DNA of 64,000 nt from Hirsutella rhossiliensis (lineage: Eukaryota > Ascomycota > Sordariomycetes > Hypocreales > Ophiocordycipitaceae): contig NW_025408667.1 of assembly GCF_020360975.1 (NCBI RefSeq), positions 8,370,001 through 8,434,000 on the forward strand, read 5' to 3'. Below, piece after piece: positions 8,048 through 60,900 of this stretch. Both the position numbers and the translations under genes were made by a program. The number at the start of each line of letters is the position of its first letter. Within the stretch, counting starts at the first letter, position 1. Below the pieces are notes generated by a model. The model was not told the origin of the DNA. It searched no databases and saw only the letters and a list, made by a program, of their open reading frames with translations.

Positions 8048-8517
8048 TATAACGACCGGTATTATTCCTAAGGGATAAACCTATTAAGGGGTTTATATTA
8101 ATAAATATAATAGGGCGTAGTCTAAGTAATAATAAGTATATTACGTTAGTAATAAGTTAGAGGTTATAGACTATAGACTATAACTAGGTAATTAGAATTA
8201 AAGATAGAATCGTAATAAAGATCTATATTAAAAGCTAGAGAGCTATCTATTTAAAGGAGTAAAAGTAGGTAGCTATATATACTTATAGAGACTATCCTTA
8301 GATTACGGTCCTAGCCGTAATCCCCTTTATAGCTTACTATAGCTTACTTATAAGCTATACTCCTAAATAGTAATCTATTTATATAAGGCTTACTTAGCTT
8401 ACGTATACTTTAGGTAAGCTAAGCTTAAGTAACTTCTTATCCTAACTATTATTCTAAGCTACTTTATTACGTAAACGTAGCCGGCTCTCTTATAGCCCGC
8501 TAACTATAGTCGTAATA
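8048..8517 (-). repeat. LTR of Gypsy copy 1 (3' LTR)
   Basis: 470 bp, from TATAACGACC to GTCGTAATA. It matches 20,460-20,929 except for transition-type differences and is preceded by the target duplication GCTAT. Confidence 0.93.
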
Positions 8518-11766: not shown

Positions 11767-12051
11767 TGTTGGGTCGTGGGTATTCGTGCTGTGCACAGGG
11801 GTGATAGAGAATACGAATCAAAGGTGCTAAAGAGCTATGCCTGTGACTGTTGTATTGGTAATCTATGAAGAGAAGAGAAAAAGATGAAGAAGAATGAGGG
11901 GAAGGAGGAGAAGAAGGAAGGAAGGGAGGAATGAAGGGAGGCGTGTAACCCCGGTCCGAATGTCTTCCGAGACCCTCCTATAAAGCCTCCTTCTCGCGTA
12001 GGGCCAGTAGAGCCCATGTCCCCACATAATGAAGTCCTCCGCATCTAGACA
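11767..12051 (-). repeat. 3' LTR of Copia A
   Basis: 285 bp, TGTTGGGTCG to CATCTAGACA on the plus strand, identical by eye to 16,527-16,811. It includes an AG-rich run (about 11,870-11,940). The purine-rich minus-strand sequence just inside it (RC of 12,052-12,075, with GAAAGAAAAAG) is the likely polypurine tract. Confidence 0.96.
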
Positions 12052-12156
12052 CTAGCAACTTTTTCTTTCAAGGAAAGACAAAGGTAACAATATAGCTGGT
12101 TGATAATCTAGTGGCCAGGGAAGGAAAGAAGTCAAAAGGCAAGGAGACGCTCTGTT

Positions 12157-12838
12157 TCACACTGGCCTATGGACTGACCCTTCTACCCGGATAGTCAGCT
12201 GGTTAGTCGAGATGAAGCGCTCAAGGGCCTTGTTTGGTGACGCCTTCGTCATTGCATCAGCTGGGTTGTCGTTGCCGTTGATCCATCGGACTTCTAATAT
12301 CTCCCGTCTCTCATATGACTGCCGTAGAGCCATAATGTCAATCATAAGACGCTTTTCCTTTGTTGTGCCGAGCTTGACAATGCATTCGTAAAGGGAATAA
12401 GAGTCTACGCAGACGATAAGGGGATTGGAGGAGATTCAGTCGGTCGGTGATCATTCTTAGGGTCGTTGCAATAGCAAGGCTGATGTCAAATCCGTCGGTC
12501 ATGCCGTAGATCTCGGAGGCAAGCACACTTCGGGTTACCCTCTTGCACTTCGTAGAGCTCCAATGGATCAAATTGCCGTTAATGTTAAAAGAAGGAACAT
12601 CCTCGGAGCTTTCTTGTTTTTCGTTAACAAGCATAACAAGAAAGCCGATTTGTGATGAGAGGTCCTTATTGTTGGCAAATGATCCATCCGTAAAGACCAT
12701 TAGTTTAGCTGTCTGTAGGTCTAGGGGCACGTATTGATCCTCTTTGTAGGTTGTCCTGTTGCCATTTGAGTCTTTTGTTGAGGGTGATGCAGTCCGTGTC
12801 TGTGGGCTGTTGGACCTGTGCCGCGGTTGACATATCAC
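12157..12838 (-). pseudogene. Copia A RNase H domain, frameshifted
   Basis: The 3' end of the pol gene. An open frame at 12,838-12,338 holds the RNase H start, with LMVFTDGSFANNKDL (first catalytic Asp) and then WSSTKCKRVTRSVLASEIYG (second acidic residue), the arrangement seen in Copia RNase H. The frame then drifts into unrelated sequence near 12,450, and the family-typical C-terminus (RWINGNDNPADAMTKA) appears in another frame at 12,345-12,157. So at least one frameshift separates the two halves. This domain normally removes the RNA strand during reverse transcription in the virus-like particle; here it cannot be made as one piece. Base composition is normal, so the breaks are indels and not RIP. 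Confidence 0.9.
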
Positions 12839-12839
12839 A

Positions 12840-13479
12840 CGTAGCTTCTGGCTGGCAGATTGAGGCGATATAGGCTCCTCGGGCGCGTTGTTCCATGTAC
12901 TTTTGCATACGATCAGAAGCTTCCACGTTAATAAGGGCGATTTTCTTAGCTTGTCCCTTCTGCTTAAGGTGAATTCGACCTTTTCGTCTAGTGCAAGCGT
13001 ACAGCCGTTGAAGTCTAGGGCCGAAGAAATTAAAAGCTTTGTCTTTGGCTTGGCGATAAACTTAGCTTCTTGTATCTTGTTTTCTTCGTGTACAGAAAAG
13101 CCTGCTGTTCCGAGGATCAGGTGTCATCCGTCTGCATGCCCACTATGCCAAACGCTTGGTTGGGGTCCGTGTTCGTTATAAGGAGGCATGGGTCGAACGT
13201 TGAAGTCGACATCCGTAGCTGCTCCCTATGATGCTTGTGGTATGTTGCGAACCAATGTAGGCCTGCTTCTGCAATGCCATAAAGAGGGCGGACGATCCGG
13301 ATGATAGTCCCCTTTGGGTACTTATCCTGTAGTTCGATGGGAAGATAGGTTAGGACTAGGCGTGCAAGTCCTGTCGTTGAATGCGTATAGGCTTGTGATA
13401 TATCCCTTAGTTCGAGGATCGAATCTGCGTCTGCCTGGCTTGAGAGCTCTGCGTACATAATCTCAAACGCTCGTCGCAA
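12840..13479 (-). pseudogene. Copia A reverse transcriptase, internally deleted
   Basis: The frame from 13,479 starts with the end of the integrase core (MRRAFEIMYAEL) and within about 20 residues enters RT at ELRDISQAYTHSTTGLAR, which carries the first catalytic Asp block. It continues through VRPLYGIAEAGLHWF to MQTDDT, the YVDD-box equivalent with the first residues replaced. In an intact Copia element several hundred residues separate these integrase and RT blocks, so the integrase C-terminal region and N-terminal RT are deleted. After DDT the frame stops, and RT-like sequence (LILGTAGFSVHEENKIQEAK) resumes in another frame at about 13,115-13,000. The RT could not be active. Confidence 0.9.
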
Positions 13480-13930
13480 AGGGCCGTGGTACCGTTCAAC
13501 CTTGCCGATAGACCAATGGCTTCAATAGGGACTTCCTTACAGGTAATCCCTAGCATCTTGGCCTCGGTTTGAAATTCCGTTGAGGCGAAGTTCGTACCTG
13601 CATCGTGGGTAACAACGTCCGGGGTCCTTGGTACGTATCGATCCATAAGCAGCGGAGGGCTTCCCAAGTGTCCTTTGTTGATAGGGACTTCAGGAACCTA
13701 GCCCGTGGAAAGCAGTAGCAGAATCGACGACATGTAAGACAGGGCGGCTAATTAAGTACATCACATCGACAAAAATTTCATAGTTGAATTCATGGTCATC
13801 TTTAGGCTGAATTTAAACCTACGAGGCTCTCGTCCGTGTAGTTGGCAGTGATGACAGAATTTGCCGATTTCCTCTAGCCGTTGCTGTTCGACTTCGTGGC
13901 CGGCCCGGGTTAGCAGCTTGAATAGGCGAT
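13407..13930 (-). pseudogene. Copia A integrase, frameshifted
   Basis: The zinc-binding end (GHEVEQQ...CHHC), a first catalytic Asp in FVDVMYL near 13,770, a second in THDAGTNFASTEFQ near 13,590 and a Glu in KVERYHGPLRRAFE near 13,490 can all be read, giving the DD35E set of a Copia integrase. They are spread over several reading frames, with indels near 13,690 and 13,530 among others. One of these is the open frame 13,667-13,407, which loses the family pattern after EVPIEAIG. The enzyme would insert the element cDNA and generate the 5 bp duplication seen at this copy's own ends, so it must have been supplied by another copy. Confidence 0.88.
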
Positions 13931-14930
13931 CTGTAGCGGGGTGCCCGAAACGGCGATGTAGGCGACGTAGTTCCCTTCTGTAAGAAAAAGGCTCTGTTCT
14001 TGCTTGCTAAGATGAAACCAAGGATGTCCCCATTTGCGTATAATAGGGATGCGGGTCTCGCCTTGGATAAGTTCGTCTGTGGTATTATTGAAATAGACGT
14101 GCAGCCTATCCATGTCTGCAAGGCAAAGCAAGAAAGGGGTCGGAGCGTTGAGGACCTGGAAGTCGATCTGTCCAATAGCTGTTCGTACGTTAACATTCCC
14201 TATAGACGATGTTGACTCTCCTTTTCCGAACGTGATGGAAGCTCTTCCGGCTGTCGATTTATCTATAGCAACGGAAGGATCTTCCCGCTGCAGCGCAAGA
14301 TACTGTTGCATACCGACAGTCGAGACGTTGGCTGCACCGGTATCTGGAAGGATGCCTTGAAGCGTCCTGCATACCGGTCCTCAATAAGGAACTGGTTGGA
14401 TGGGGTCTTTGGGGCATTATCGGCGTAGATGTCTTCTCCGGTGACTTGGTGCAAGAAAGCCTGGTCTGTAAGGAACTGCGTTACGTCCTGCAACTGGTCT
14501 TCGTCTTCGTCGTCAAACGGGTCACTAGGGTCAAAGTCGGCTTCCTCGTCCGTATCGGCTCCTTCATATTCCGTGAGGTAGGCAGCGTAGTCCGTAGCTG
14601 TGGCCGTAGACCCACTGAAGTGGCATTGTGAGATATACTGGCTTCGTGACTTACGTCTTTCTTCGTCGGAATGCCTCGTTGACCAACATTCTGGCTTTCC
14701 ACAAACGAAGCACTTCTTCGTCCACTGTCGTTTCTGATCTCGGCTACCTTGTGGGTTCCTCGGGGCCGAAAAGAGGAATATCCGCGGTTCCTACCGTACT
14801 GATTGTACCGTCGGTCCATGTAGTAGCTGTCCGTCGAGGTTGTATATATAGCTTGTCTACTGATAGAGGTCTCGATTGAAGACCGTAAATCAGCAAAAAG
14901 CTCTTCGCACACGCGGGCAGGCTTGAACAA
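13910..14930 (-). pseudogene. Copia A zinc knuckle, protease and pre-integrase region, frameshifted
   Basis: Three pieces lie in different frames. A CCHC-type knuckle (CFVCGKPECWSTRHSDEE) is readable near 14,655-14,715, in a frame with no long ORF. The retropepsin-like active site LPDTGAANVSTVG is readable near 14,310-14,350. It runs straight into the open frame 14,311-13,910, which continues with GKGESTSSIGNVNV and TPFLLCLADMDRLHVYF, typical of the stretch between protease and integrase in fungal Copia. Open frames at 14,930-14,481 and 14,493-14,263 are partly out of phase with these motifs, which shows at least two indels. The knuckle packages element RNA and the protease cuts the polyprotein. 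Confidence 0.85.
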
Positions 14931-15008
14931 TGCGTGTTCAAGTTCTATGACTCCTCGGCAGGCTCGGATAACTGTAGTACGTAAATTATCCTCCTCGATA
15001 CTCAGGGC

Positions 15009-16243
15009 CTAGGGCCTCTGGCAAAGCTGTAGCTTATCAAGTAGCAGCTGAAGAACCTGATGTAGGGTCTTATCACTATGTTCCCTACGGACCCTATCGA
15101 AGGTAGCAGTTGTCCAGTCGGTGTAATAGTGATGATGGTTAACATCGGTGTCGAAATGCGTCTTAACCTTGTGATACGCTATTGCAAATGTATCGTCTTG
15201 ATCGACGTAATGAAGGTAGAAGGTTTCTGCTCGTCCGTTAAGAATCCTAGGAAATACCGCATAGAATTGGGTCTCCCGGATCTGTGCATGGAAGCAGATG
15301 TTGAAAAAGATCTTCATCTTATCGTCAAGGAGGTCGTAGGGCTCGCCTGTGTACTTTTGGTCTTTGTCAAAGGTCTTTAGAAACTGGGCAGAAACGGCGG
15401 GGTCAAGCCGTTCGTTCGAACGGAACGAGGGGCAGGGCCTTGTACGGCTGATGCCCGTCAGGCTGGGTCTGCCTTGAAGGAAATGACTGTAGTAAGGGGG
15501 CTTGGGGAATAGACTTCGTCTGGGTCTGTTGAGTGGGGATGTCTTGGGGAAAGCTTTCCTGGGAAAATGGGGCTTGGAATAAGGTTCCTTGGGGGGTCAT
15601 CTGTTGGGCTTGCTCGGAGGCCTCTGGGGTCCTTGGAAACAACCTGTTGCTGCTGTTGCAAAGCCTGGGCTTGGGTTGTAGGCTGGTCCCTTGGTGACTG
15701 GTCTTGGGTCGGATTTTGGATATTCTCTCGGGAAGAAGGCGTTGCGAGGGCTTGTTGTTGCCAGGAAGCATTTGATCGTACGTCAAATATCTGTTTTGTG
15801 AATTCCTCGGGGTCCCAAGTAGGGAAACTGTCGGCTTCGAGTAGCTTAATCAAGGATCGTTCGATTCGCTGGTGGTTCGTCCCAGTATATACTCCCTTTC
15901 GGCGGAGAACCCGGCGGAGCTCCCGCCGGTATGAAATTTCAACCATAAGGAACATGTCTAGCGTCCATCCTTCAAAGTCTTGTTGGAAAGCATGGAAGAC
16001 TTCATCATCCCACATCTTCTCAAGAGTATAGGCTTTAAGGGCCTTAGCTGCGTACGTGGTTGCATGTATCTCCGTTATATTATCGACTGAGATATCTTTG
16101 AATCGAAGCTGAGGGTCTATAGCGGAAAAATCGGCCGCGAAGTCGGTTCCGCGCATAAATTCCTGAGCAGAAATAGGTTGGCGTAGGCGTACATCTTCTT
16201 GAGGTTGTATAACCCTTATGCCTTCTGTTTGTCCTTGTGACAT
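15009..16243 (-). pseudogene. Copia A Gag, frameshifted
   Basis: Capsid-type polyprotein of the element. The start at 16,243 (MSQGQTEGIRVIQPQED) is the first ATG after the leader. The first 160 or so residues are helical and charged, then comes a Gln/Pro/Ser-rich linker that includes QQQQQ. Phase changes twice: near 15,600, where the linker continues in the frame 15,786-15,403, and near 15,415, where sequence resumes as LDPAVSAQFLKTFDKDQKYT and runs through 15,317-15,009. The second part (FFNICFHAQIRETQFYAVFP, GRAETFYL) resembles the conserved Gag block of fungal Copia elements. A stop at 15,009 ends the frame before the zinc knuckle. Confidence 0.85.
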
Positions 16244-16319
16244 GTTGATTGTTGTGATGTCAAGGCTTTCCTACCGGCTTGGTCTAGTCGGTTCTTGTCG
16301 TGTGTGTAGCATAGACTTC

Positions 16320-16470
16320 TCTCGGGACTATGGTGCAACCTATAGAAATAGGTCTCGCAGGGAATTCTTCAAGGAATCGGGTCTTTCTCTTCCACTTGCA
16401 AACTTCCTCTCTCGGACTGTGGTGCAACCTATAGAAATAGGTCTCGCAGGGAATTCTTCGAGGAAACGGG
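16320..16470 (-). repeat. Duplicated 89 bp-spaced repeat in Copia A leader
   Basis: A 40 bp sequence, TGGTGCAACCTATAGAAATA followed by GGTCTCGCAGGGAATTCTTC, occurs at 16,331-16,370 and again at 16,420-16,459, exactly 89 bp apart and identical. It lies between the 5' LTR and the Gag start, where packaging and primer-related signals of LTR elements normally sit. Confidence 0.92.
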
Positions 16471-16526
16471 GATGCTTTTCGATACCTAACTTTCTGTGGT
16501 TAAACAGACGTTCAACCACTGATCAG

Positions 16527-16811
16527 TGTTGGGTCGTGGGTATTCGTGCTGTGCACAGGGGTGATAGAGAATACGAATCAAAGGTGCTAAAGAGCTATGC
16601 CTGTGACTGTTGTATTGGTAATCTATGAAGAGAAGAGAAAAAGATGAAGAAGAATGAGGGGAAGGAGGAGAAGAAGGAAGGAAGGGAGGAATGAAGGGAG
16701 GCGTGTAACCCCGGTCCGAATGTCTTCCGAGACCCTCCTATAAAGCCTCCTTCTCGCGTAGGGCCAGTAGAGCCCATGTCCCCACATAATGAAGTCCTCC
16801 GCATCTAGACA
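16527..16811 (-). repeat. 5' LTR of Copia A
   Basis: 285 bp, identical by eye to 11,767-12,051, followed by the target duplication GTAAT at 16,812-16,816. The primer-binding site should start just inside it on the minus strand (CTGATCAGTGGTTGAACG, RC of 16,509-16,526). I could not match that to a tRNA with confidence. Confidence 0.96.
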
Positions 16812-36839: not shown

Positions 36840-37460
36840 AATAGTATTAGATATTTAGGGGCTAATTAAAGTGCTTACTTATAATAAATATTACTATTAT
36901 ATTTCTTTCCTAGACGTAGGAACCCGATATCTAGAAATATACCTTCTTCGAAAAAAGGGGGAAGCTCTAGATAGGTTCCTAGAATTTAAAAATAAGGTAG
37001 AAAATAACCCTAAAAATACTAGGATTAGAGAAGCATTTTCTAATAATGCTAAACAATTTATATATAAAATAAAGCTCTATTATAAAAAAGAAGGAATTAC
37101 CTTTAATTCTAGTCCTCCTAGGACGCCGGAATCTAACGGAAGAATAGAAAGAATAAATCGTACTATATTAGAAAAAGTACGAGCTCTTTTATTTACTACT
37201 AGGCTCCCTAAATATCTATAGGGAGAAGCTGTTTTAACAGCTACCTATTTATATAATAGATTACCGTATTCTATAATGGGATTTAAAACTCCTATAGAAA
37301 AGAGGGATAATATAATACTACCCTTCGAGACCTTAAATAAAATTAAGACCTTCGGAAGCCTTATATATTATAAGAATAAAGACCCTAAAGATAAGCTAGA
37401 TAATAGAGCTTTTAAAGGAATAATAGTAGGCTATTTAGAAAATGCATATAAAATCTAGGA
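36840..37460 (+). pseudogene. Copia B integrase fragments
   Basis: Two open stretches, 36,871-37,221 and 37,276-37,458, are parts of one integrase frame separated by stop codons. The first holds ISFLDVGTRYLEIYLL (first catalytic Asp), EAFSNNAKQFIYK (second block, the Asp-Gly region altered) and PESNGRIERINRTILEKVRA (catalytic Glu). The second holds GFKTPIEKRDN and KIKTFGSLIYYKNKDPKDKL, then FKGIIVGYLENAYKI, the conserved C-terminal block of Copia integrases. The stop between them (TAG before GEAVLTATYLYNRLP) is a RIPped Trp codon. The long open stretches are remnants and not host genes. Confidence 0.9.
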
Positions 37461-47960: not shown

Positions 47961-50122
47961 AGGGTCTGTCTAGAAATTCGTCTCCTAGTCTTTCCTTAGC
48001 CGTAGTGTTCGTATTCGATAGTCTTTAGGCCCCTTATTCGTACGCCCTATTATTATCCTAGCTTATATAAAGCTAGGGGGCCCGGGTAACTAAGTCGTGT
48101 ATACTAAATAAGACCGTCTCCTTAGGCTGCCGGAAGAGGGTCTTTTATAGTAGACCTATTCCTCTTAGTAAGGAAAGCTAACTTCTTAAGTAGTTCCTTC
48201 CTATAAATAGGTTAGAATTTAAGAATAAATTAACCGAATTTCTCCTCGATAAGCCCGATAGTCTAATTCTTCTAGACTAGCCTCGTAGGCTTAGACGTTA
48301 TATCCTAGAAGATTCCTTCTTCTCGAAGAAAGCGGAAGGAAATCAGGCTCGTTAAAAATCGAGGGTAAAAGGCTACCCTTTTTCTTCGAAGAATTTATAT
48401 AGATCCGTTAGGTAATTTTATCGTAAAATTTACCCTTCCGTATCCCTCTATCTATATAGTTAATTCCCCGGTAATAAGGTATTCCCTCCGCGCCTTCTTA
48501 AAGGACCGGAATCGTAAGAGTATATTATAGATATCGAGGGAAGCACTAGAGTTAAGGATAGCTGATTTTCGTAGGGGATAATCGGAGGGCTCTAACGGTT
48601 GGTCTTGGCCTTATTAATCTATAGGGAAGACGAAGGCCGGATTTACTATACTAACGATTTTTCCTCGAATTTGCGGCTCGAATAAGGGCAGCGGCGTTAG
48701 TTGCTATTTCTTAGCAACCTAAATCTCGTCTATTTTCTTCTATAACGAGGGGTCCTCCTTAAGAGACTATTATATTATTTCTCGTAGCCTCTTTAAAGGG
48801 TTAAATCCTTTAAGTCGGTTTTCCTTAAAGACCTACTAGTATTATAATAATCGATAGCCTAGGGATTTGCAGGCTAGGTAGCCGTTTCGCCTAGTCTTTC
48901 GTTTCTTCGAGGAATCCTCGTCCCGATCTAGAAGGTCTGCTTAAAAACCCCCCCTTTTTACCCCTTATTGCTAATTTTAACGAAGAGGTTCGATTTCGAC
49001 TAGTTCCCTGATTTTTCGACTAACGGACTAAAAGGTCTATTAGGGGACTAGTCGGGCCGGTCTAACTAACGGGACCGGGGACGGGCCCGGAGCAAGATGC
49101 GTAACCGGGGCCGGGCCTAGGGCCTCAGCTGCAGTTAACGACGGCGTTAAGGCTCTCGAGGGAGGAGGAGCCGAAGGAGCAACAGCCGCAGCAGCAGCAG
49201 CAGCGGGAGCCGCAGCAACAGTAGCTGCAGCAGCTGCAGGGGCAGCAGGTCGAGCCGTCTAGGTCGAGTGCTAGCCACGGAGGAATAAGACTGCTTACTA
49301 TTATACTCTAGCAGCCTCTTCGTCTAGTTCCCGGCTAGCCTCTCGAAAGATAGTCGAGTAACCGTTACTAATAGGCTTTATTAGTAGAGATATATCCTAT
49401 AGCCACTAGCCGGAAAGAGCTTCTATAAGGAAGTATTAGTTAGCTTCCTCGAGGATTTCTTCCTACTTAGCTAGCTATAAAGAAGCTAGTAGGTTCCTAG
49501 TAGAAAAAGCTCCTAGGTAGGCCGTATAGGTCTTCCTAATACGGTTAGTTATATAACCTCTCGAGGGAGCTATTAAGGTCTCGAGCTTTAAAGCTACTGC
49601 CTAGGAGTCTCTTCCTCTTAAAGAGAGATTAGCTTTACGGCACTAACGGATTCCGTTATCGCCGTACGAGCAGCCGTTAGTAGCTTCGTTTCGTAGAGGT
49701 ATTCCTTTCGGTGACTCTCGTAGTCGCCTAAGGTAGTAGAAAAAGCTCTCTATTATATAGAGGTTAGTTCGGAGAAGAGGGAAGCTCCCTTTATAAAGTC
49801 CGTTACTATAGGACGAAGAGGGGGCTCGAGAGGGTCCTACTTATTAGAGAAGACTAAATTATAGATAGTTCTATCTATACGAGCCCGTAGCTCCTTTACC
49901 TACTTATCCTTATCTTAGGGCTCTATAAGAATCGTCCTACGGACCGTAGGGGCGGCAGAGGAGTCGTTTTTCGACATCGTTGCGGAGAGAGGGGGTAGAA
50001 AAGTCGGTTAAAAATCGGCGTTTCTAGTAAGAGGGGTAAAAGGAAGCCACGAGGGATATAAGAAAGGTGCCTTTTATAGCAGCCGGAAGGTATAGGAATA
50101 CTATTCCTCCCGGGCTTATAAC

Positions 50123-50599
50123 TCTCGCGAAGAGAGATGCGAGAAGTATATAAAAAATGCACGAAGATAAAATTAGAAGTAAGGGGTCGGATAGGCAGGG
50201 CAGAGAGATTTAATTCTTACGGGAGCAGTAATTACGGCAGGGGAGTGATTGTTATATTGCCTTAATTGTCCTTCTTTCCTCTATCTAACGCCCCTCTTTA
50301 TACCCGTCTAGTATCTCGATTAATAAAGAAGATCTTACTTAAAGAAGCTACTAATGTCCTTTTAACTACCGAGCTTTTTGCTAGTTTTTCCCCTCCTTTT
50401 TAGCCGTTGCTAGCATATCCGTCTTATCTCTCGCTACCTTTATAGGAAGCTATCGCTACTTCTGCTTCCCCTCTTGCCCCTACCCTCCTCTCTATACCTC
50501 CTTTTAGCTCCTTCCTTAAAACCTGTTTTTTAGCTTCCTAGGTCCCTCGTACTAAGGGATATCTCTAAGAACTACGAAATTAGGCTACGCTTTGCGATA
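50123..50599 (-). repeat. 5' LTR of Copia C
   Basis: 477 bp, TCTCGCGAAG to TTTGCGATA on the plus strand, partner of 44,241-44,713 and homologous to the lone LTR at 4,603-5,087. It is followed by ATAAT. Confidence 0.9.
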
Positions 50600-50604
50600 A
50601 TAAT

Positions 50605-53012
50605 AGAATAGATTAAATAATAATATAACTTTTTATAGCTTAAAGAAATAGTATAATAAGTTATTAAAGAATATAAACTTTATATATAAGGTAAAGCTAA
50701 ATAATATAAACTATATAGAGAATTATAACCGCTACTAGTACTAAAGAAACTATAGGATTTAATAGCTTTTAACTATATTATAAAGCTATAACTATTAAAA
50801 GAACCTATAACTAACGTTAAGTATAATAGTATATTTACTATTACTAATAAATTAATAAAGTATAGATACTTTTTACTATATAAAGAAGTAAGTAATATAA
50901 AAGAGCTAGTATATATATTCCTATAAACTATTATTAGTAATTATAGACTATTAAATAAGATTATCTTTAATAAAGGAAGTATATTAATAGCTAAATTTTA
51001 GTAAGCTCTTATAGTATAATTAAGGATAAAATATAAGCTTAGTATAGCTTATTACTTATAAATAGATAGATAAATAGAACGACTTAACTAAACGCTTAAA
51101 TAATATTTATAATACTATATTAACTATAAATAAAACGATTAAGTTAAATAGCTATTAATAGCGTAACTAGCTTATAATAGCTTAGTTATAGAAATAACTA
51201 AGCTCTTACTAATATACGCTAATTATAAATATAACCTAGAAGTATTTAAGGTTACTTAGTAAGGACTATAAGTAGAACGAGCGATGCTATAAGTAAATTA
51301 GCTATAAGAATTATATAAAGAAATATAATAAGAACTTTAATTTATTAAAGAACGAATATCTACTTACTATAATCGGAAAAGATTATAAGGACTAATCTTT
51401 TAAGAGGGAGATATAGTCTACCTTATACGACGAAATAGTAAAATAAAATAACTAAGTAATAAATTAGATTTTAAGAAACTTAGACTATTTAAAGTTAAGA
51501 AAACTATTTTAAAAGTTAACTATAAACTTTCGCTATTAATAGTAATATAGATATACCTAATATTTTATATCTTATTATTAGAACTAGTACTATAAAACGC
51601 TAAACTATAGGTTAAAATTAAAGTTAATAATAATTAGGAATATAAAGCTAAATAAATACTAGATATAAGAAAATAAGGTTAGTAATAAGAATACCTTATT
51701 AGGTAAAAAGGATATAAACTAAAAGAAAATACCTAGGAACTACTTAAGCACTTAACCTATTATAGTTCTCTACTTTAATAGTTCTACTAAGCGAACCCTT
51801 ACTTAGAAATATAAGGTTATTAAAAATAGTATCTTAGTCTAATATATCTAAGGCACTAAGTAATTAAACCTCGCTAATAGTAATAGTTTCTTTATTTAAT
51901 AAACGAACTAATTTATCTTAAGAAGAACGCGTTATACTATCTTCTTTATTAATAGCTTATATACCCTACTAAAATAACTTACTACCTTAGTCCTATAGGA
52001 AATACTTTTATTTCCTAATCTAAGCTAAGCGAGCTATCGCTTCCTTTAACGCTTCTTTTACTTTTTATTTATCTAAATTAATCTTTTACTATTAATTTAT
52101 AATACGACGAACTAAAAAAGAAGGAATATTAGCGAAAAAAATAATAAAGAAGGAAAGGGATAAAATAAATAGGCGGACGCTATATTATAACTATTATAAA
52201 AACGACCTATAAAGATATATTTAGAATACTAATTAGAACGCTCGCCGACCTTATAAGTTAGGCTTAACCGAAAATAATAGGAGTAAGGTATAATTTTAAT
52301 ACTATAGATCTCGGTCTAAGATACTAGCTCCGATCGTTATTACGATTTATTAGAATTATAAGAACGGGATTTTTAAATATAACTAGATATACTATTAGTA
52401 GTATATCCTAAAAGGATAAAGGAATAAGGAACGATATACTTATATATAACGCAATAAGGGTATATTTATATACGGCGGCTAAGGTAGTAGGTCTTAAGGG
52501 TAAGACTAAAAGGAAGGGAGGCATCCTATTACGACTATAGTCTAGTAAACCGCGGGGACTAGTATATATTATAAGGATATATAACGTAGGGAGTAAGGAA
52601 TATTAAATAGACCGACGGGCTAATTAAGTTTAAAGCGACGGGTTACTCTAGCGCTTTAATGCTTTATAGCTAGGATCATAGGATCGCTCTAGTGCTCTAG
52701 CGCTCCTAGGCGATAGGATTACCTAGTGCTCTCGATAATCTAGGGAAGCTCTTAAGATATATAAGGAAGGAACGGAATACTCCTTTAAATAGATAGCTTA
52801 ATAGCTTTTAATATATTATAATTATTATAATCTTTATTACTATCTTATCTTTAATTCTAATTACTTAATTCCCTAGTTATAGTTTATAGTTTATAACCTC
52901 TAACTTATTACTAATATAATATACTTATTATTACTTAGACTACGCCCTATTATATCTACTAATATAAACCCCTTAATAGGTTTATCCCTTAGGAATAATA
53001 CCGGTCGTTATA
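50605..53012 (+). mobile_element. Gypsy copy 4, 3' part with divergent LTR (RIPped)
   Basis: Continues 44,006-44,240 on the plus strand: integrase C-terminal and chromodomain region (about 51,050-51,770), then a segment that departs from copies 1-3 (about 51,790-52,400), then the 3' LTR. The RIP level resembles the other Gypsy copies. The 5' half is not in the window. Confidence 0.82.
52527..53012 (+). repeat. 3' LTR of Gypsy copy 4, divergent U3
   Basis: 486 bp, TATTACGACTATAG to GGTCGTTATA. The first about 20 bp and the last about 200 bp match the family LTR. The middle (about 52,550-52,780) is different and holds repeats of AGTGCTCTAGCGCTC type. It marks a subfamily. Confidence 0.85.
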
Positions 53013-53408
53013 TTAATAGTTAATTATATAATTATCTCTAACCTTATCTTATAACGATATCTTCTTAGGCTCTACTTTATTTTTCCGCTATAAGGCTTAG
53101 CGGGCTATTTTTTATTAATACCGGCCTTTAGCCGGGCCGGTAGTTAGGTTATTACACCGGCTTCGCGCCGTACTTATTAAGTTACTAGTATCGGCCCTAG
53201 GTTTTTATTTTCCTAGTTAAGGGGCCCGGACCGGGGTTAGGGGGAGGTCCTAACGAATTCGTCGCTAGGTCTAAGTAGGCGAGGTCGGGGCCGGCCTACT
53301 TATAGCGGGGCTAGACTGCTAGTATATTTATAAGCGCTTCTAGAAGCGCTAATTAGCTAATTAATAAGTAGTTTAGCGTAGTCTACTAGTCCGACTAAAA
53401 ATTAATCG
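53013..53408. other. Spacer with GC-rich hairpins, no gene
   Basis: RIPped sequence with unusually GC-rich inverted repeats, for example TACCGGCCTTTAGCCGGGCC at about 53,119-53,142, CGGCTTCGCGCCG near 53,160, and TTATAAGCGCTTCTAGAAGCGCTAATTA near 53,330. CpG-rich but CpA-poor, as expected if only CpA was mutated. I see no coding frame or known element. It may be the end of another DNA transposon. Confidence 0.4.
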
Positions 53409-53434
53409 TGCCCCTAGCCGGATTCGAACCGACT
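53409..53434 (-). pseudogene. tRNA-like 3' half (T arm and acceptor strand)
   Basis: The minus strand reads GTCGGTTCGAATCCGGC followed by TAGGGGCA. GTCGG pairs with CCGGC (one G-T) around a TTCGAAT loop, and TAGGGGC would be the 3' acceptor strand. This is a well-formed tRNA T arm with a B-box. It stops where the Fot1 element begins; a possible 5' half lies on the other side at 54,940-54,990. Anticodon and isotype are not determinable, and no clean complete cloverleaf forms when the halves are joined. Confidence 0.4.
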
Positions 53435-53437
53435 CTA

Positions 53438-53478
53438 ACGTTAGCCACCTAGCTTATAGCATACCCCCCTTCTAGCAC
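53438..53478. repeat. Left terminal inverted repeat of the Fot1-type element
   Basis: 41 bp starting ACGTTAGCCACCTAGC. It differs from the reverse complement of 54,897-54,937 at one base, T for C in a CpA context, a RIP-type change. Confidence 0.92.
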
Positions 53479-53579
53479 ATCCCCACCCCCCTCGCGCCGA
53501 CATTAACATTATATCGCAACCGCGTTTTCTCGTGCACCTTCTATCTAATAATTATAAATAATATACTATTCGAATCACG

Positions 53580-54870
53580 ATGCCTCGAGCTTCTAAATAC
53601 ACCGAAGATTAGCTCTAGGAAGCACTTTTCGATATTAGAAACGGGATGCCGTAGATATATACTAGTCGTAAGTAGGGTATTCTAAGAGGCACGCTTTAAA
53701 CGCGTCTTAAAGGCGCCCTACTAATAAGAGAGGCATAAGAGTTATATTAGCGGCTTAGTCGAGAGTAAGAGAAACACCTTAAGGACTAGATTCTTACCTA
53801 AGCCGCCCTTAGGCTGCCCCCTACACACTTTCAGCTTAAGGAATTCGCTAGCCGCATTATTAGAGCTAGCGGCGACCTTCGCCTACTTAGGAAAAATTAG
53901 GTATTAAGCTTTTTAGCCTATAACTAAGAGGATTAGAACTTCGTGGCCTCCCTAAGAGGCTAGATAAGCGACGAGATCGCGATTCGGTGGCTTAAAGATA
54001 TCTTTATCCTATAGATAAGAAAGCAGCTATAAAGCAACGTTCTTCTTATATTAGATAGCCATAGAAGCTATTAGACTAACGATTTTATATACGAATGCTT
54101 CTAGCACGGTATATATCTCCTTTTCTTACTACTACACGCCTCTTACGTCATTTAACCTCTCGATGTCTCGGTTTTTGCCCTAATTAAGGGCGCCTACCGA
54201 CGCGAGCTCGAAAAAATCGTATCTTTCGATAATATAGCGCCTCTCGGTAAAGCTCTCTTCCTTCGCTGCTATTATTAGGCGCGGCAGACTAGTCTAATAG
54301 AAAGAAGCATTAAAGGAGGGTAGCGAGGGGCCGGTCTTTAGCCAGTTAATATAGCAAAGCCCTTAACGAGCCCCCTTATCTTATAATAGCTAAAGATACC
54401 GTTAACGCCGCTAAAGAAGAAGAACCTTAGCTCTTAGACGAATAACGATGCCTTTAAAACACTAAGACGATTATAGGAAGTCCGTAGCTTTATTATTGGC
54501 CTAGCAAAGCGCGGCAGAGCTGACCGCATAACCCGAGTGCTTTTTAACAAAATTAGCCGCTCCCTAGACCGTTAGAATTCGCAGCTTGCAACGGCACAGC
54601 TACGCATACAATAACTTAAGCACTAAGTATATCGTCTACGGCCTTAGAAGCAGAAAAAGATACTATAAGACCCCAATGGCCGCTTCGTACGCATTAAACA
54701 AGTCCTTAAGACGAGAAAACGGCTCGAACGCATCCTTAAGCCGTCTGCCATTGCAATAGCCAATTAGAACGCAGATTTTAAAGCTCTATGTAGTAGCTGG
54801 TAGCTTAAATAGCTAGAAAACACTAAATTGATCTATCGCGATGTTAAAATGCGGCTTCAATTGCCGTTAG
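53580..54870 (+). pseudogene. Pogo/Fot1-type transposase, broken by RIP stops
   Basis: The frame starts MPRASKYTED at 53,580. The first about 60 residues (EALFDIRNGMP, YTSRK-GILRGTL) form a Psq/CENP-B-type helix-turn-helix. The second DNA-binding part (HLKD-ILT-AALRLPPTHF, LKEFASRIIRASGDLRLL) follows at about residues 70-110. The DDE catalytic region is readable: LLILDSHRSY-TNDFIYE near 54,045-54,110, then LLFLLLHASYVI-PLDVSVFA and IKGAYRRELEKIVSF, which match DDE_1 transposases, then SLIERSIKGG near 54,290. At least a dozen in-frame stops, nearly all TAG at former Gln/Trp codons, disable it; the end is approximate. The protein would bind the 41 bp inverted repeats and cut the element out at TA. 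Confidence 0.88.
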
Positions 54871-54896
54871 AATGTGCCCTCTTTGCTATAGGAAGG

Positions 54897-54937
54897 GTGC
54901 TAGAAGGGGGGTGTGCTATAAGCTAGGTGGCTAACGT
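54897..54937. repeat. Right terminal inverted repeat of the Fot1-type element
   Basis: 41 bp, GTGCTAGAAGGGGGGTGTGC onward to CTAACGT, the inverted partner of 53,438-53,478. It is followed by the TA target copy. Confidence 0.92.
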
Positions 54938-54939
54938 TA

Positions 54940-54990
54940 GCGTTATAGCTAGTAGGCTTCCTAGGTATATAACTACTATACTACGAGGGT
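54940..54990 (-). pseudogene. tRNA-like 5' half (D arm), beyond the Fot1 insertion
   Basis: The minus strand reads ACCCTCGTAGTATAGTAGTT then ATATACC. TAGTATAGTGG is a common eukaryotic tRNA D-arm/A-box sequence, and here G is replaced by A as RIP would do; GTAT can pair with ATAC. With the T arm at 53,409-53,434 it frames the transposon. The joined sequence is about 80 nt, but its anticodon part (CTAGCTATAACGCTAG) makes a 5 bp stem with a 6 nt loop, which is not canonical. It could be a mutated tRNA gene, a tRNA-derived SINE, or chance. Confidence 0.3.
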
Positions 54991-55429
54991 AATTTATTCC
55001 TTTTATATTAAAGCTAAGGGACGTTATAATTTTATTTTAGAACCTTATTACTATTAAGATAAGGCTATACTAGCTTCTATATTAAAGTCTAAGTAAGGTA
55101 TTTATACGTATAAATACCCCCTTAGGTCTTATATAGCTAAAAGAGGTATATATATTATTGTTATATTAAGTATATATTCCTTAATTATTTCTATATAAGC
55201 TCTCTAACGTTTTATTTAAGAAGCACTTATAGATTAATAGTAGGTAGATAACTATTTCGATAAATCTTATAGCTTTATATTATATTAGCGTATAAGAAGG
55301 ATAAGTCTTAGTTAAGAAAGTATATTACCTAGGCGTAGAGAAGCTAATCTAGCTACCTTAGGTTAAAGAATATAGCTGCTTAGATCTTAATTTATCTTTA
55401 ATTCTCCTAAGCATTACTCTAGAATAGTC
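54991..55429. other. RIPped AT-rich stretch, no gene
   Basis: TpA-rich, CpA-poor sequence with no recognisable frame or repeat end. It reaches to about 33 bp from the stop codon of the secreted-protein gene. The switch to normal composition occurs at about 55,430 (TATCAAAATCTTTTTCCTGC). Confidence 0.6.
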
Positions 55430-55462
55430 GTATCAAAATCTTTTTCCTGCCTGAATCTTTCG

Positions 55463-55981
55463 CTAGTTGTCGCTGTCCTGTCTCTCCTCGAGCAGGCCGG
55501 TGTTATCTCTTTTAGCTGCTCCCGCAGCCCTGGCCTTCTGGGCCTGCAGTGCGGCATTGTTAGCGTCCAGCTGTGCTTGCTCCGCGGCATTGGGCTTGGC
55601 TGCGACAGCTGCCTGCGCCTTGGCCTGCTTCTTGGCTTTCTTGGCCTTCTTCCCCTTCTTGGCCTTCTTCCCCTTCTTACCCTTCTTCCCCTTCTTCCCC
55701 TTCTTCCCCTTCTTCCCCTTATTCCCCTTCTTAGCCCTTCGTTCAAGGCGCAGGGGAGGCCCGGTGGCCAGATTAGGGGCCGCAGGGAGGCCAAGGCCAA
55801 CAGCTATATAGTTGTAAGCTCGTTTTTGTGATCTTCCCGTTAAAGAATGACGAAGCAATTGAGACAACTCACCTCGCTCCATAAGATCTGCGTTGTTCAT
55901 ATCATCCGTGCTAGGGTGGGCCAAGGTAAACGAAGCAGTGGCCGCGAATAGGGCACAGGTAAGAAGGTCGGAAAACTTCAT
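55463..55981 (-). CDS. Small secreted lysine-rich protein (KKG repeats), orphan
   Basis: I do not recognise a family. Unspliced it is 172 residues; with the likely 69 nt intron removed (55,872-55,804) it is 149. The N-terminus MKFSDLLTCALFAATASFTLA is a clear signal peptide (basic start, hydrophobic core, cleavage after LA). A short acidic propeptide-like part (HPSTDDMNNADLMER) follows, then LGLPAAPNLATGPP, then a Lys/Gly block of KKG and KKA units (about 35 residues), then an Ala/Gln-rich helical tail ending GLLEERQDSDN. Dibasic sites (SQKR in the unspliced form, LERR, AAKR) could be cut by a Kex2-type protease. The start is the only ATG upstream of the signal peptide, with A at -3. It is the only host-like gene in the window and lies in a 1.5 kb non-RIPped island between repeats, a setting typical of candidate effectors. 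The basic block could bind nucleic acid or anionic surfaces, or act as a nuclear signal; function is unknown. Confidence 0.8.
   Translation of the reverse strand: MKFSDLLTCALFAATASFTLAHPSTDDMNNADLMERGELSQLLRHSLTGRSQKRAYNYIAVGLGLPAAPNLATGPPLRLERRAKKGNKGKKGKKGKKGKKGKKGKKAKKGKKAKKAKKQAKAQAAVAAKPNAAEQAQLDANNAALQAQKARAAGAAKRDNTGLLEERQDSDN
55640..55735 (-). repeat. In-frame 9 bp minisatellite encoding KKG/KKA
   Basis: Plus-strand units CTTCTTCCC and variants (CTTCTTGGC, CTTCTTACC) run for about ten copies. Each codes for Lys-Lys-Gly or Lys-Lys-Ala on the minus strand. Units are nearly identical at DNA level in the middle of the tract, which suggests recent expansion by slippage; the period keeps the frame. 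Confidence 0.9.
55804..55872 (-). other. Probable in-frame intron of the secreted-protein gene
   Basis: On the coding strand the donor GTGAGT follows CGAG at 55,872, and the acceptor TATATAG ends at 55,804. A possible branch site (TTAAC, or GCTTACAAC) lies in between. The length of 69 nt is typical for filamentous fungi and divisible by three without an internal stop. Retention is therefore silent to ORF callers; removal deletes 23 residues including the KR site. Confidence 0.65.
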
Positions 55982-56554
55982 CTTAGTGGTCGCCTATTCA
56001 GTCGAGAATAGAAGGAGAACACGGAAGCGATAAAAGGTTATCAAGAAGAATCGAAAGAATGGACTAAAGAGTGAGCACAGCTCGAAGACTTAAGTCGTAG
56101 ACTCGAGAGAGAAGAATGATAATAAAACGGGGAAGGAGAGAATGAAATAGCGGATGAGGTTGCGGAAAGAAGCTGGATGGAACCTGGCAGAGGCATTCTT
56201 TTTATGTCCATGGGCCATTATTAGATAGGAAAGAGACTTGGGTGGAATCTAAAGCAGGAGATGAGTTTAGAGGGAGGGCGATATAATGATGCCGAGAGCT
56301 GGGAGGGCGCTAAGCCGAAACACGACTCCTGCCTCCGACTAAAGAGACATGACTGCCGAAACAGCCAGGAGGCGACGTGTTATGCGATGTTTAAGCTGGG
56401 CCAGAACAGATGACATGCGCTGAGACGCATCCCAAGTGCCGGGGATTTAATATCATCCGGTGACGGCTTGAGTCGGGCGCAGCTGTTGTGGGCGTGGTGG
56501 TGGCGAGGCAGGGCCCGGATCGCTCTTATCCGAGAATCTGTCACTGATGTGCGG

Positions 56555-56582
56555 TTCCCTACACGGGAGGGCGAACCGCAAC
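56555..56582. repeat. 28 bp direct repeat, copy 1
   Basis: TTCCCTACACGGGAGGGCGA then ACCGCAAC. Copy 2 lies 93 bp on, at 56,648-56,675, and differs only at two bases after TTCCCT. It contains a short inverted repeat (CCCT...AGGG-like) and is GC-rich. Confidence 0.9.
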
Positions 56583-56647
56583 CAAATCGTGGCTCGTGAC
56601 AAGAACTGCCCATAGATGGACTTAGAGAATATGTAACTGTCAAGCGT

Positions 56648-56675
56648 TTCCCTTTACGGGAGGGCGAACCGCAAC
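56648..56675. repeat. 28 bp direct repeat, copy 2
   Basis: TTCCCTTTACGGGAGGGCGA then ACCGCAAC, matching 56,555-56,582 at 26 of 28 positions. Both lie about 570-700 bp upstream of the secreted-protein ATG. Confidence 0.9.
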
Positions 56676-56849
56676 GCGAGACGAGGAGAACCGTTTGCGC
56701 CCACAACAGATCCGGCGCCCGTTGTTATTTTGCAAGTCTCTCAACGACTACTATCCTGCTCAGTTACACGCATCATCGCCACCTTACACTGTCCCCTGTA
56801 GTCTCGGACCTGCCCCCTTTGGCCTCCCTGTCCTATACTTTAGACTTAA

Positions 56850-56867
56850 AAATACCCATGGGTATTT
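56850..56867. repeat. 18 bp perfect palindrome at the hAT end
   Basis: AAATACCCATGGGTATTT equals its own reverse complement. Related half-sites (TATGGGCTACCCATACC, TACCCACGGGC) follow within 40 bp. They could be transposase-binding sites; they remain unmutated although the DNA beyond about 56,910 is RIPped. Confidence 0.85.
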
Positions 56868-57290
56868 ACTTATGGGCTACCCATACCTACCCACGGGCTA
56901 TTTTAGGGCCACTATAAATACTTAGTAGGTAGGCAAATTTAAAATAGGTACCTAAAAATATATATAGGTATATTCGGGCTACCTATAGGCATTACCTATT
57001 TAGTTTTATTATACTAATCGTTGATACTTATCCTAATACGAGGTACCTATAAAATATACGTAGGCCGTATAGCTAAAAGTAGTATTAAATTAAAGGATAA
57101 GATCCTATAGATATTATTTATTCTCTACCTTAACTATCCTTTTAATATTTAAAGTCCTATTATCGCGGTCGAATATTCTCCCTATATCTAGTTCTCTTTA
57201 TAGAGGAGGCGACTATTGCCTCTATTACTATATAGCCTTTTTGCTTTTTCTTACGGCTTTAAACTTATTCTTCCCGATAAGAGTTACTTT

Positions 57291-57350
57291 CCTCTATCTC
57301 CTCTACTTCCCCTATCTCCTCTACTTCCTCTATCTCCTCTACTTCCTCCG
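57291..57350 (-). repeat. 18 bp tandem repeat coding for an acidic stretch
   Basis: Three units of 18 bp, TCTATCTCCTCTACTTCC with one C/T variant. On the minus strand they read as EVEEIE repeats next to further Glu/Ser codons. Part of the degraded hAT transposase region. Confidence 0.8.
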
Positions 57351-57900
57351 ACTCGTTATTACTTAGTAGAGCAATATTAATTATATCGCGATACTTATCT
57401 CTCCCTTACTAGCTTTACGTTTATATTTAGAGAGAGTCTATAAAAAGCTTTTATTAGATAATACCTATAGGCTATAGGTAAGTATAAAATCTCTTACTTC
57501 AATCTTAATCTTCTTTATATAGTATTATAGTCTCTTTATTAAGACGAATTCTACTAAAAGGATTCCTATTTCTAGGAGTATAAAATATCTTTAGAGCTAT
57601 ATTAAGTTTATATAGCCGATCTATATACTCCTTTATAGGGTTAATACTATTATTAATCTTTATATCTTAAAGAAGGATACTATCTTATACGTCGAATCGA
57701 GACTATAGGATTAATAGCGTAAATCTCGCCTATAAGTTTAAGAGTTTCGTCCTAGATCGCTAGTATATATTAATCTACCGGTAAATGCTCTAAGCGCGCT
57801 TAAGCGGCACGCTACTTAGTTATATTACTAGAAATTCTCGTGCTATAATATAAATATTCTTATACCTTTTATACTAAGATATATAGCGCTAAAAGCTATA

Positions 57901-60900
57901 TATATCCTTAGATAGTAACCTCCTTAGCTAAGATTAGTATATTACTTATATATTAATATAAATAAATAAAAACTTACTTTCTTTAAAAAAAGCCCTATAA
58001 ACCGAAATACCTTTATTACCTTATAAAGTCCCTTAATATATAATTAGTATAAATAATTACTATAAATTATTATACTATTTACCTTTATTAAACTAAGAAA
58101 CTAAGTAAGCTAGTCCTTATAAGAGTTAAGAGTAATATTAGTATTAAAGGATTATACTAATAACTATAAGAATCGTTATTAGTAATAGGAAATAAATATA
58201 TCTTTATAAGTCTTTTATACTTACTTAGAACTAAGTAGATTAGCTTTAGTCTCCTTCTTTAGTAAAATAAGTAATCCTACTTAACGAATATTAAGCTTAC
58301 TAATACTTAATAGGGGCGTAAGTAAGGTAGTAATTATATATACTTTCTTTTCCTTCTAGAGGTAGTTAATATACTTAGTAAGCTTTTTCTCTATATTATT
58401 AATTACTATTATTAGTATACTTTACTAGTTATTACTAGTATTATAAATATTAGTAATTTTAGTACGGGAGTAAATAAGATACTTATAAATTATCTTTAGC
58501 GAGTTCTAAGATTCTAAGAGTATTATATCTTTCCCCTAGCTAACGTTATTTATAAGCTATAGGAATATCTTCTTAATATTAGTTAGGTAGTTAATTTACT
58601 CTTAATTATTAGTAGATAAAGGCGGGCTAAGCTAGGTATTACTAGTAAGAAGTATATTAATTGCCTATTATAGCTCCTTAGCTCTCTTAAGTATTATAAT
58701 AGTAGAGTTCTAGTATATAATAATATAACTAGAAATACTTAATAGTTATTTATTTAGTTAGACCTCTTATTAAATATTAAAGAAAACCTTTATCTACTTC
58801 GCGCTTAAATAGAGTATTAATACTAGTATATAGATCTAAGAAGGTTAATATAAAGATTAGTATATAAGTTATAGTATTCTAATTAGTATTAACTTACCTT
58901 TATTATTATTCCTAAGATAACGTTGCTTATACTTATAGATAAGTTACTTAGTATATCCTTATTAGTACTTACTTCTTCCCTATTATAGTTATTTTATAGA
59001 GTTCCTATTATATAAGAATAACTTTATATAACTAGTTTCTACTTTACCTTAATCTTAATAAGCTTTTTATAATCTAGTATCTTAGATATAAGAAGGTTAA
59101 GAATATACGTAATATATCGTATATAGTAAATCGTACTTAGTATATTAATCCCTAGATATAAGTTAAGTTTCCCTTATAAGTCTCCTAAATAAAGATATAT
59201 ACTATTATTAGTAGTAATACTTTTAAATTAATCTAAAATACAACGCCTTTATAGATATTATATAATAGTATTATTTTATAACTCCTTAGAATAGCTAGCT
59301 AATATATTTATTAGGCCGAGTAGAAGAAGCTATAAGTACTAATTATAATCGACGTAGTAACTAATAATTCTAAGGACTACTTTAATATTTTTAGTTTAAG
59401 TCTAGCTATCGATAGTTAGCGAGAGATACTATTTAGAAGGTATATAGTTAATTAATACTTCTCGAAGATTATTAGCGATTATCTCTATTAAATTTATTAG
59501 TATAAGGGCGGAGGGAATATAGAATTCTAGATAGTAGAAATAAACTAAGTCTTAGAAAGACTTATAGTTTACGATATTAACGGCTAAGTATATCTACGAA
59601 ATAAAATTAGTAAGATAACGTTAATATTATAGCTTTTATTTTTAGGTGCCCTATAATAAGATTAGTATAATAGATTACTATATTTTTATATAATATATAT
59701 AAATATACTAGGGTATATTTCTTTTATACTTAGGTAGATTAAAATATATTCTTAGGTTACTATTTTTTAATATAAAACTTACCGTGCCTATAGCGTATAA
59801 GAGCGCTTATACTAGAACCTTTAATATAAGGATAGATTAGTATAAACTAGTAGGATATATAAATTACCTAAGGTTCCCCTATCTTATAGTTTACGCCTTC
59901 CTTAAAAGGCTACTATATATCTAAATAATACGAAGTATTAAAGATTAAAAGAGTATTCTTCTTATAAGGAGATATGTCTATATTAATAGTATTAGAGCTT
60001 AAGATACTTACTTAAGAGTATATTATCCTAGGAGATTAAATATTATTTAATAAGTTAGCTTTAAATCTCGTTTTATACTAGCTAGTAGATATCTACTAAT
60101 TAAGGAAATCTTAATAATCTTAATACTAAAAGCATAGCGGCTTTCTAAGAGATACTAGCCTATAAGTAGGAATTATACTAGTATCTATAGTACTACCTTC
60201 TTTACTTCCTTAATTAAAAGATTAAAAAGGAGATAGTAGGTCTTTATCTCTATTAAAAAAAAATTAAGATAATTATACTAACTACCTTAAGTTAATAGCG
60301 AAGAGGTAAAAGGCGAATCTTAGTCTATATTGCCGTAAGGTAAGAAGCTTAGAGCTTAGAGTAAGATATTTAACTTTTAAGCGTTTTATCTTTAAAGAAA
60401 TAGATTATTAAAGTATAAAATCTATATGGTATCTACTATAAAGAAGAGGATAAAGATCTATATAAATAGTTATTATGAGTAAATAGGTACTTTTAATAAA
60501 GTAAAGTAAATAATATATATAAATAATTAGTATAATTAGTATATATAGAGTGCTTTATATTATATAGTACCGAGGTAATAGGTATATATCTAATAATAAG
60601 AGAAAGTAAGAAAAGCTATATACTACTTTAATATAAAGTTATATCTCGGTATATATACTATATATAGAACGTAAAAGAGTTTTACTAAGCCCTTATATAT
60701 TGCGTATTAACTAAAAATTCCCGCTACGTTAGTATAGAAAGCATTCCCTCCTTTCTCTTTATTTCTAAAGGTACGCTCTTAGTATACTATATACCTTACC
60801 TTAAGAAAGGTATATCTAAAATAATATAAACTCTTACTATTCGCTAGTAAAAGTAAAGCTTATAGCTAGATAACTAGAATTAAGCTTTAATAGCTTCTTT

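Follow-up and report, generated by a model that had tools for sequence, protein, structure and literature searches.

The window analyzed here (a stretch of 64,000 nt, C1:8,370,001–8,434,000, from an 81.8-Mb genome of 40 contigs whose size, RIPped repeats and introns would suit a filamentous ascomycete) contains a RIP-free island that carries an intact gene for a strongly cationic secreted protein. This gene belongs to a family with three members in the same genome; the family is real and new, though probably modest. The window gene is almost certainly genuine, and its product is very probably secreted. In the reading put forward here, whose chances are about evenly poised, the three genes encode Kex2-processed secreted precursors that would release a polycation; on the surface of the hypha or of the host, this product would bind anionic polymers. 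The window gene is not clearly a plant-disease effector.

The gene and its predicted product

The island holds one gene, as had been predicted from the DNA: a single open reading frame of 172 codons on the minus strand, with its ATG at 55981 and its stop codon at 55463 (Table 1). The frame is intact, but the 172-residue protein read from it gives way to a product of 149 aa once a predicted intron of 69 nt is removed. Because this intron is in frame, it is hidden in a naive translation, in which one KR site falls inside the intron. The intron reads GTGAGT...CTTACAACTATATAG; its donor and acceptor are good, as is a branch-like sequence. What speaks most strongly for this splice model is a pair of paralogs, whose predicted introns (95 and 50 nt) share their position and phase with that of the window gene.

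The predicted 149 residues comprise a signal peptide of 21 (by eye), a near-neutral pro-segment of 38 (net charge −1), a core of 76 (net charge +27, pI 11.3) and a tail of 14 (net charge −4). The start resembles a signal peptide when judged by eye, in agreement with the original prediction, and the same is true of all three family members. The possible Kex2 sites proposed earlier are likewise present in the predicted product as LERR (residues 56–59), KR and LEER; LMER lies at residues 33–36, and only QDSDN follows LEER. A structure model of the single unspliced sequence is weak (mean pLDDT 59.8, pTM 0.24). Its best-predicted part is the Ala/Gln stretch (pLDDT 83–84, residues 131–150 of the unspliced protein), and the same model draws helix at core residues 102–126 and partly in the pro-segment. 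Thus, disorder along the full length of the core is not established.

Table 1. Features in and around the island (positions in the window; a dot marks features given without strand).
Feature	Position	Strand	Basis
RIP-free island	55401..56800	.	Negative composite RIP index (400-bp windows), GC ~0.52
Exon 1: encodes signal peptide and first part of pro-segment	55873..55981	-	ORF, splice model, alignment with both paralogs
Predicted intron, phase 1, 69 nt, in frame, stop-free	55804..55872	-	GTGAGT donor, TATATAG acceptor
Exon 2: end of pro-segment, LERR, Lys/Gly repeat core, Ala/Gln helix, KR, LEER, acidic tail, stop	55463..55803	-	
Tandem repeats that encode the lysine-rich core	55638..55740	-	Tandem Repeats Finder, 18-nt unit score 155; 9- and 27-nt rows overlap
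36-nt 5' leader/promoter motif, 92–127 nt upstream of ATG	56073..56108	-	Alignment with C5; with C1b by a one-base gap
TATA-like box (by eye), 213–224 nt upstream of ATG	56194..56205	-	Alignment with both paralogs
51-nt direct repeat copy 1, contains GCGGTTC...GAACCGC (inner palindrome)	56532..56582	.	82% to copy 2
51-nt direct repeat copy 2	56625..56675	.	Pairs with copy 1
RIPped Fot1/pogo-type element, left of gene	53432..54943	+	DDE_1 E 2.4e-16; 47-nt terminal inverted repeats, 96%
Putative hAT C-terminal remnant, right of gene (weak)	57736..57870	-	PF05699 E 0.02, 15.1 bits vs cut-off 21.4

A family of three genes

The two paralogs, C1b (at C1:2,373,850) and C5 (named for its contig), emerge from searches of the genome with each protein in turn. 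The window protein has ten matches in the genome: two are the gene itself, one is C1b (E 3.6e-4) and two are C5, which is matched weakly (0.21 and 0.25). The remaining five (L005–L008 and L011) are rejected, as reading of the frames by eye shows them to be low-complexity matches; L006 is a frame rich in repeats that lacks the conserved tail. With its core masked, the C5 protein matches the window gene at E 9.4e-5 and C1b at 3.3e-3. The C1b protein matches the window gene at 0.044 and a site on C12 at E 0.08, and C5 is absent from the matches listed. For the C-terminal block, none of 2000 shuffles aligns as well in any of the three pairs; for the N-terminal block the same holds in two pairs, and 41 of 2000 shuffles do as well for C5 against C1b. 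The N-termini of C5 and C1b form the weakest link of the family. A predicted intron at a common position and phase, the C-terminal block, Kex2-type sites and leader similarity are shared by all three genes.

The three proteins keep their processing sites while their cores diverge. The pro-segment ends at LERR↓A in the window protein, where the paralogs have FERR↓A and LKPR↓A (the arrow marks the predicted cut). KR and LEER occur in every member, KR not in one alignment column across the three. None of the three has a cysteine after the signal peptide. The cores consist of GKK triplets in the window protein, ten-residue units of the NGAANKKAAN type in C5, and KGKN and GNKAN units in C1b; the net charge of the core ranges from +12 to +27 and that of the tail from −4 to −6. 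Composition and charge are thus retained while the sequence is replaced: the processing sites are conserved, and the repeat core that they enclose has been exchanged from one member to the next. In all six block comparisons dN is below dS (ratios 0.23–0.69), although dS of 0.87–2.01 is near saturation and the blocks are short (42–59 codons).

Similarity extends into the upstream region. Over the 250 nt upstream, none of 1000 dinucleotide shuffles scores as well as the real sequence in any of the three pairs. The similarity is clearest between the window gene and C5 (43.5 against a best shuffle of 25.5), where it starts at the TATA-like box and reaches almost to the ATG; it is lower between C5 and C1b (28.5 against 22.5) and marginal between the window gene and C1b (22.5 against 21.0). 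In an ungapped comparison the leader motif of the window gene and C5 agrees at 30 of 36 positions (best of 60 shuffles, 26), and the motif is not picked out for the pairs with C1b, in which it needs a one-base gap. Genome sites of a 31-mer from the leader, at up to three mismatches, are found only at the window gene and C5, and its reversed control has none. A reading of the leader motif as an RNA hairpin is rejected: 128, 20 and 47 of 200 shuffles fold equally well. The 19-nt core of the direct repeats farther upstream occurs, at up to two mismatches, nowhere in the genome but in these two copies; its reversed control likewise has two sites.

A promoter 18-mer was also rejected: at up to one mismatch it has six sites, as does its reversed control, and so does not rise above chance. 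Three of its four exact sites lie upstream of family genes and one lies on C3, but the 18-mer was derived from the family, so exact matches at family genes are circular. On C3, C6 and C18, the 1.3 kb that follow the 18-mer sites downstream show no family gene; the C6 site adjoins what looks by eye like a gene for uracil-DNA glycosylase.

Outside this genome, no family member was found among 5.8 billion predicted proteins, in searches that scored 7986 and 7996 candidates (those with the most shared words) and 11 candidates; the family is an orphan in these searches. The only database match (P0001, E 1.9e-4) is rejected, as it has another architecture with acidic and lysine-rich stretches. In Pfam, the window protein has nothing above cut-off, with a sub-cut-off collagen match and weaker ones, and among solved structures its best match has E 0.22. 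The statement that the protein falls into no recognised family is thus borne out by Pfam and by the protein searches. The core repeat string is absent from the open-access literature searched, and none of the titles listed there concerns such a family.

Processing, charge and comparison with known precursors

KR, RR and LxxR are given as Kex2 motifs in the available part of PMC8528282, and maturation of the Kex2 type is likely for the family. After secretion via the signal-peptide-like N-terminus, Kex2 would cut the pro-segment at LERR↓A and the acidic tail at KR↓D, perhaps also at LEER↓, in the secretory pathway. Maturation would then leave a 76-residue polycation that combines a flexible core with a helix, and the conserved Ala/Gln helix would provide whatever specificity exists. 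Candidate ligands are phosphomannan or polyphosphate in the wall, polysaccharide of the matrix, nucleic acid of extracellular or host origin, and microbial surfaces. Charge-based binding of anionic polymers, a suggestion drawn from the charge alone, is plausible but falls a little short of an even chance.

Known fungal precursors resemble the family in part. As far as the available part of PMC6339444 describes them, Kex2-processed repeat proteins (KEPs) resemble the family, whose secretion is predicted, in being secreted precursors with repeats and Kex2-type sites. The rule given there asks for at least four fragments of at least 2 aa after cutting at KR or RR, or else at KK, with three or more similar fragments that account for no less than 15% of the protein. 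Cutting at KR or RR yields three fragments in each of the three family members. Cutting at KK yields 3 fragments for the window protein, 13 for C5 and 2 for C1b if KK is removed, and 12, 14 and 2, respectively, if KK is kept, a choice on which the available text of PMC6339444 is silent. If KK is kept, six GKK fragments account for 12% of the 149 residues of the window protein, and three AKK fragments raise this to 18%. Fragments of the AANNGAAN type in C5 reach the similar-fragment rule by count, whereas C1b does not (both assessed with the Fimo step left out). Unlike the KEPs as covered in the available part of PMC6339444, the family thus has one member, C1b, outside the rule, and its core repeat is not conserved.

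These counts bear on the possibility that the proteins are precursors of small secreted signalling peptides, in which the product would be acidic peptides at the C-terminus, from between the KR and LEER sites and from beyond them, or else the repeat units cut at KK, and the rest would be spacer. KR and LEER persist in all three paralogs while the core is replaced, C5 fits the fragment rule via KK under both counts, and the window protein fits it if KK is kept, with its 12 fragments and six GKK. However, the tail after LEER varies in length and sequence and is reduced to five residues in the window protein, C1b falls outside the fragment rule whichever count is used, and tripeptides like GKK would be odd as a signal. 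A signalling precursor is an unlikely reading of the family.

Kex2-processed pro-domain (K2PP) effectors, as presented in the available part of PMC8528282, resemble the family in having an N-terminal pro-segment whose closing RR or LxxR site falls within the first half of the sequence. Their pattern asks for a KR, RR or LxxR site in that half with disorder-promoting residues before it. In the window protein LERR lies in the first half, as does LMER; disorder of the pro-segment was judged loosely, and the weak structure model shows some helix there. The K2PP pattern is thus seen at the level of motifs and not of function. Unlike the effectors covered in the available part of that source, the family lacks cysteine in the mature protein, has a lysine-rich core of low complexity and carries extra Kex2-type sites near the C-terminus. 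Rep1, Hum3 and Rsp1 of Ustilago and SP7 of Rhizophagus are likewise secreted repeat proteins, some of them cut by Kex2, according to the available part of PMC4617103. Their units as given there are amphipathic or hydrophilic and 6–55 aa long, unlike the lysine-rich core, and the word "lysine" is absent from the main text of that review of repeat effectors. A collagen-like protein (PF01391) is rejected: seven GXX triplets stand at the start of the window core, but the match scores 22.5 bits against a cut-off of 27.2, the repeat has no proline and the core repeat of C5 differs. In a broad sense, the family fits among Kex2-processed secreted repeat proteins.

A more elaborate version of the polycation reading, rather unlikely as a whole, would have a fixed processing frame (signal peptide, LxxR or RR, Ala/Gln helix, KR↓D, LEER and leader element) that carries interchangeable cationic cores. 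Each precursor would yield a polycation and an acidic C-terminal peptide, the family would be lineage-restricted, and one member would sit in silenced, RIPped chromatin for conditional expression.

The RIPped surroundings of the window gene

The setting of the gene was described with a composite RIP index, calculated as TpA/ApT minus (CpA+TpG)/(ApC+GpT). The window gives 128 bins of 500 bp, and the index exceeds 0.5 in 118 of them, lies between 0 and 0.5 in two and is negative in eight; in 400-bp windows the negative segments are 11,801–14,500, 15,101–16,800 and 55,401–56,800. The last of these is the RIP-free island anticipated for the gene: bins wholly within 50,001–55,500 or 56,751–60,250 are at 0.90 or more, and the bins that straddle its edges are at 0.06 and 0.58. 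Beyond the window, the index stays above 0.5 on both sides, in 18 of 18 bins over the preceding 9 kb and in 20 of 20 over the following 10 kb. Farther out, 12 of 20 samples of 1 kb taken from 8.19–8.61 Mb of contig C1 are RIPped (index at least 1.49, at 8,270–8,340 and 8,470–8,550 kb), and eight are near zero or negative (at most 0.04, at 8,190–8,250, 8,350, 8,450, 8,460, 8,580 and 8,610 kb). The pattern of these samples points to a RIPped block of ~0.3 Mb with some other normal patches, and the non-RIPped samples at 8,350, 8,450 and 8,460 kb indicate other islands tens of kb away. The description of the gene as "lone" applies across the 83 kb read, except for an unclassified non-RIPped stretch at 11.8–16.8 kb.

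The largely RIPped block occupies C1 ~8.26–8.56 Mb on a contig of 12 Mb and is possibly a centromere or pericentromere. The second, larger non-RIPped stretch (11,801–16,800) holds minus-strand ORFs that are broken and, by eye, resemble those of retroelements, and Pfam finds nothing in the four ORFs of this stretch that were scanned. An ORF in RIPped DNA at 36,859–37,218 has a sub-cut-off integrase match (PF13683, 19.2 against 26.5 bits).

RIP targets duplicated DNA. A DNA search of the island against the genome (simple repeats skipped) gives one match, which is the island itself. A RIP-free, single-copy gene between repeats is therefore expected, and no special protection is needed; selection would keep the frame open. 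Of the transposons proposed for the two sides, the Fot1 element on the left is confirmed (Table 1), and the hAT element on the right is not sustained, as its one match falls below the curated cut-off and the right flank has none at E 0.01 or better.

It is very unlikely that the window gene is a decaying duplicate heading to loss, with a shortened tail, surrounded by RIP and probably heterochromatin, and perhaps silent. Its tail is indeed the shortest (14 residues against 21 and 22 in the paralogs), and RIPped DNA starts within roughly 100 nt of its stop codon. Conversely, the frame is open, the splice signals are intact, the leader motif and TATA-like box are retained and the 500-bp bins over the gene have a negative RIP index.

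The original prediction had taken the location in a RIPped block as the mark of a candidate effector. A lineage-specific effector would enter host cells, its polybasic core would reach the nucleus or bind nucleic acid, and the RIPped block would favor fast change or silencing outside the host. The secretion-like start, the lack of a relative in the searches made and the polybasic, cysteine-free mature protein agree with this, as does the position of a lone gene amid RIPped transposons, a description that suits the window gene and neither paralog. The cationic core is compatible with a target in nucleic acid or the host nucleus, and equally with other anionic polymers. However, all 20 bins around C5 have an index below 0.2, and the DNA around C1b is mostly normal, apart from a RIPped stretch of ~1.5 kb that starts ~1.2 kb upstream of its ATG. 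Neither paralog lies in a RIPped block (10 kb examined around each), so the family as a whole is not a RIP-compartment family. The low dN relative to dS and the promoter that resembles those of the paralogs also count against an effector, and it is doubtful that the host is a plant, since plant pathogens typically carry larger sets of pectate lyase and cutinase genes. Exon-by-exon matching, uncalibrated for fungi since the responding controls were bacterial or none, gives no pectate lyase match in this genome and at least four cutinase matches at two or more loci. The location of the paralogs, the low dN and the few plant-wall enzymes together weaken the argument from the RIPped block, and an effector is improbable here.

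As a candidate effector the gene would be one among many, and its importance modest. Should the family prove real and be expressed, it would offer a three-way comparison of one secreted gene inside and outside a RIPped block, and the effect of RIPped surroundings on expression and rate of evolution would become testable.

Two further observations concern repeats and enzymes. L015 contains, at 1815–1866, a terminal-repeat-like piece that is 86–90% similar to those of the Fot1-type element left of the gene, probably from another copy nearby. The exon-by-exon matching (controls again bacterial or none) also gives at least eight matches to AA9 polysaccharide monooxygenase at five or more loci; those at C5:5309822, C2:6503104 and C11:401675 score almost alike and are perhaps recent duplicates, and a stop interrupts the match at two of the three.
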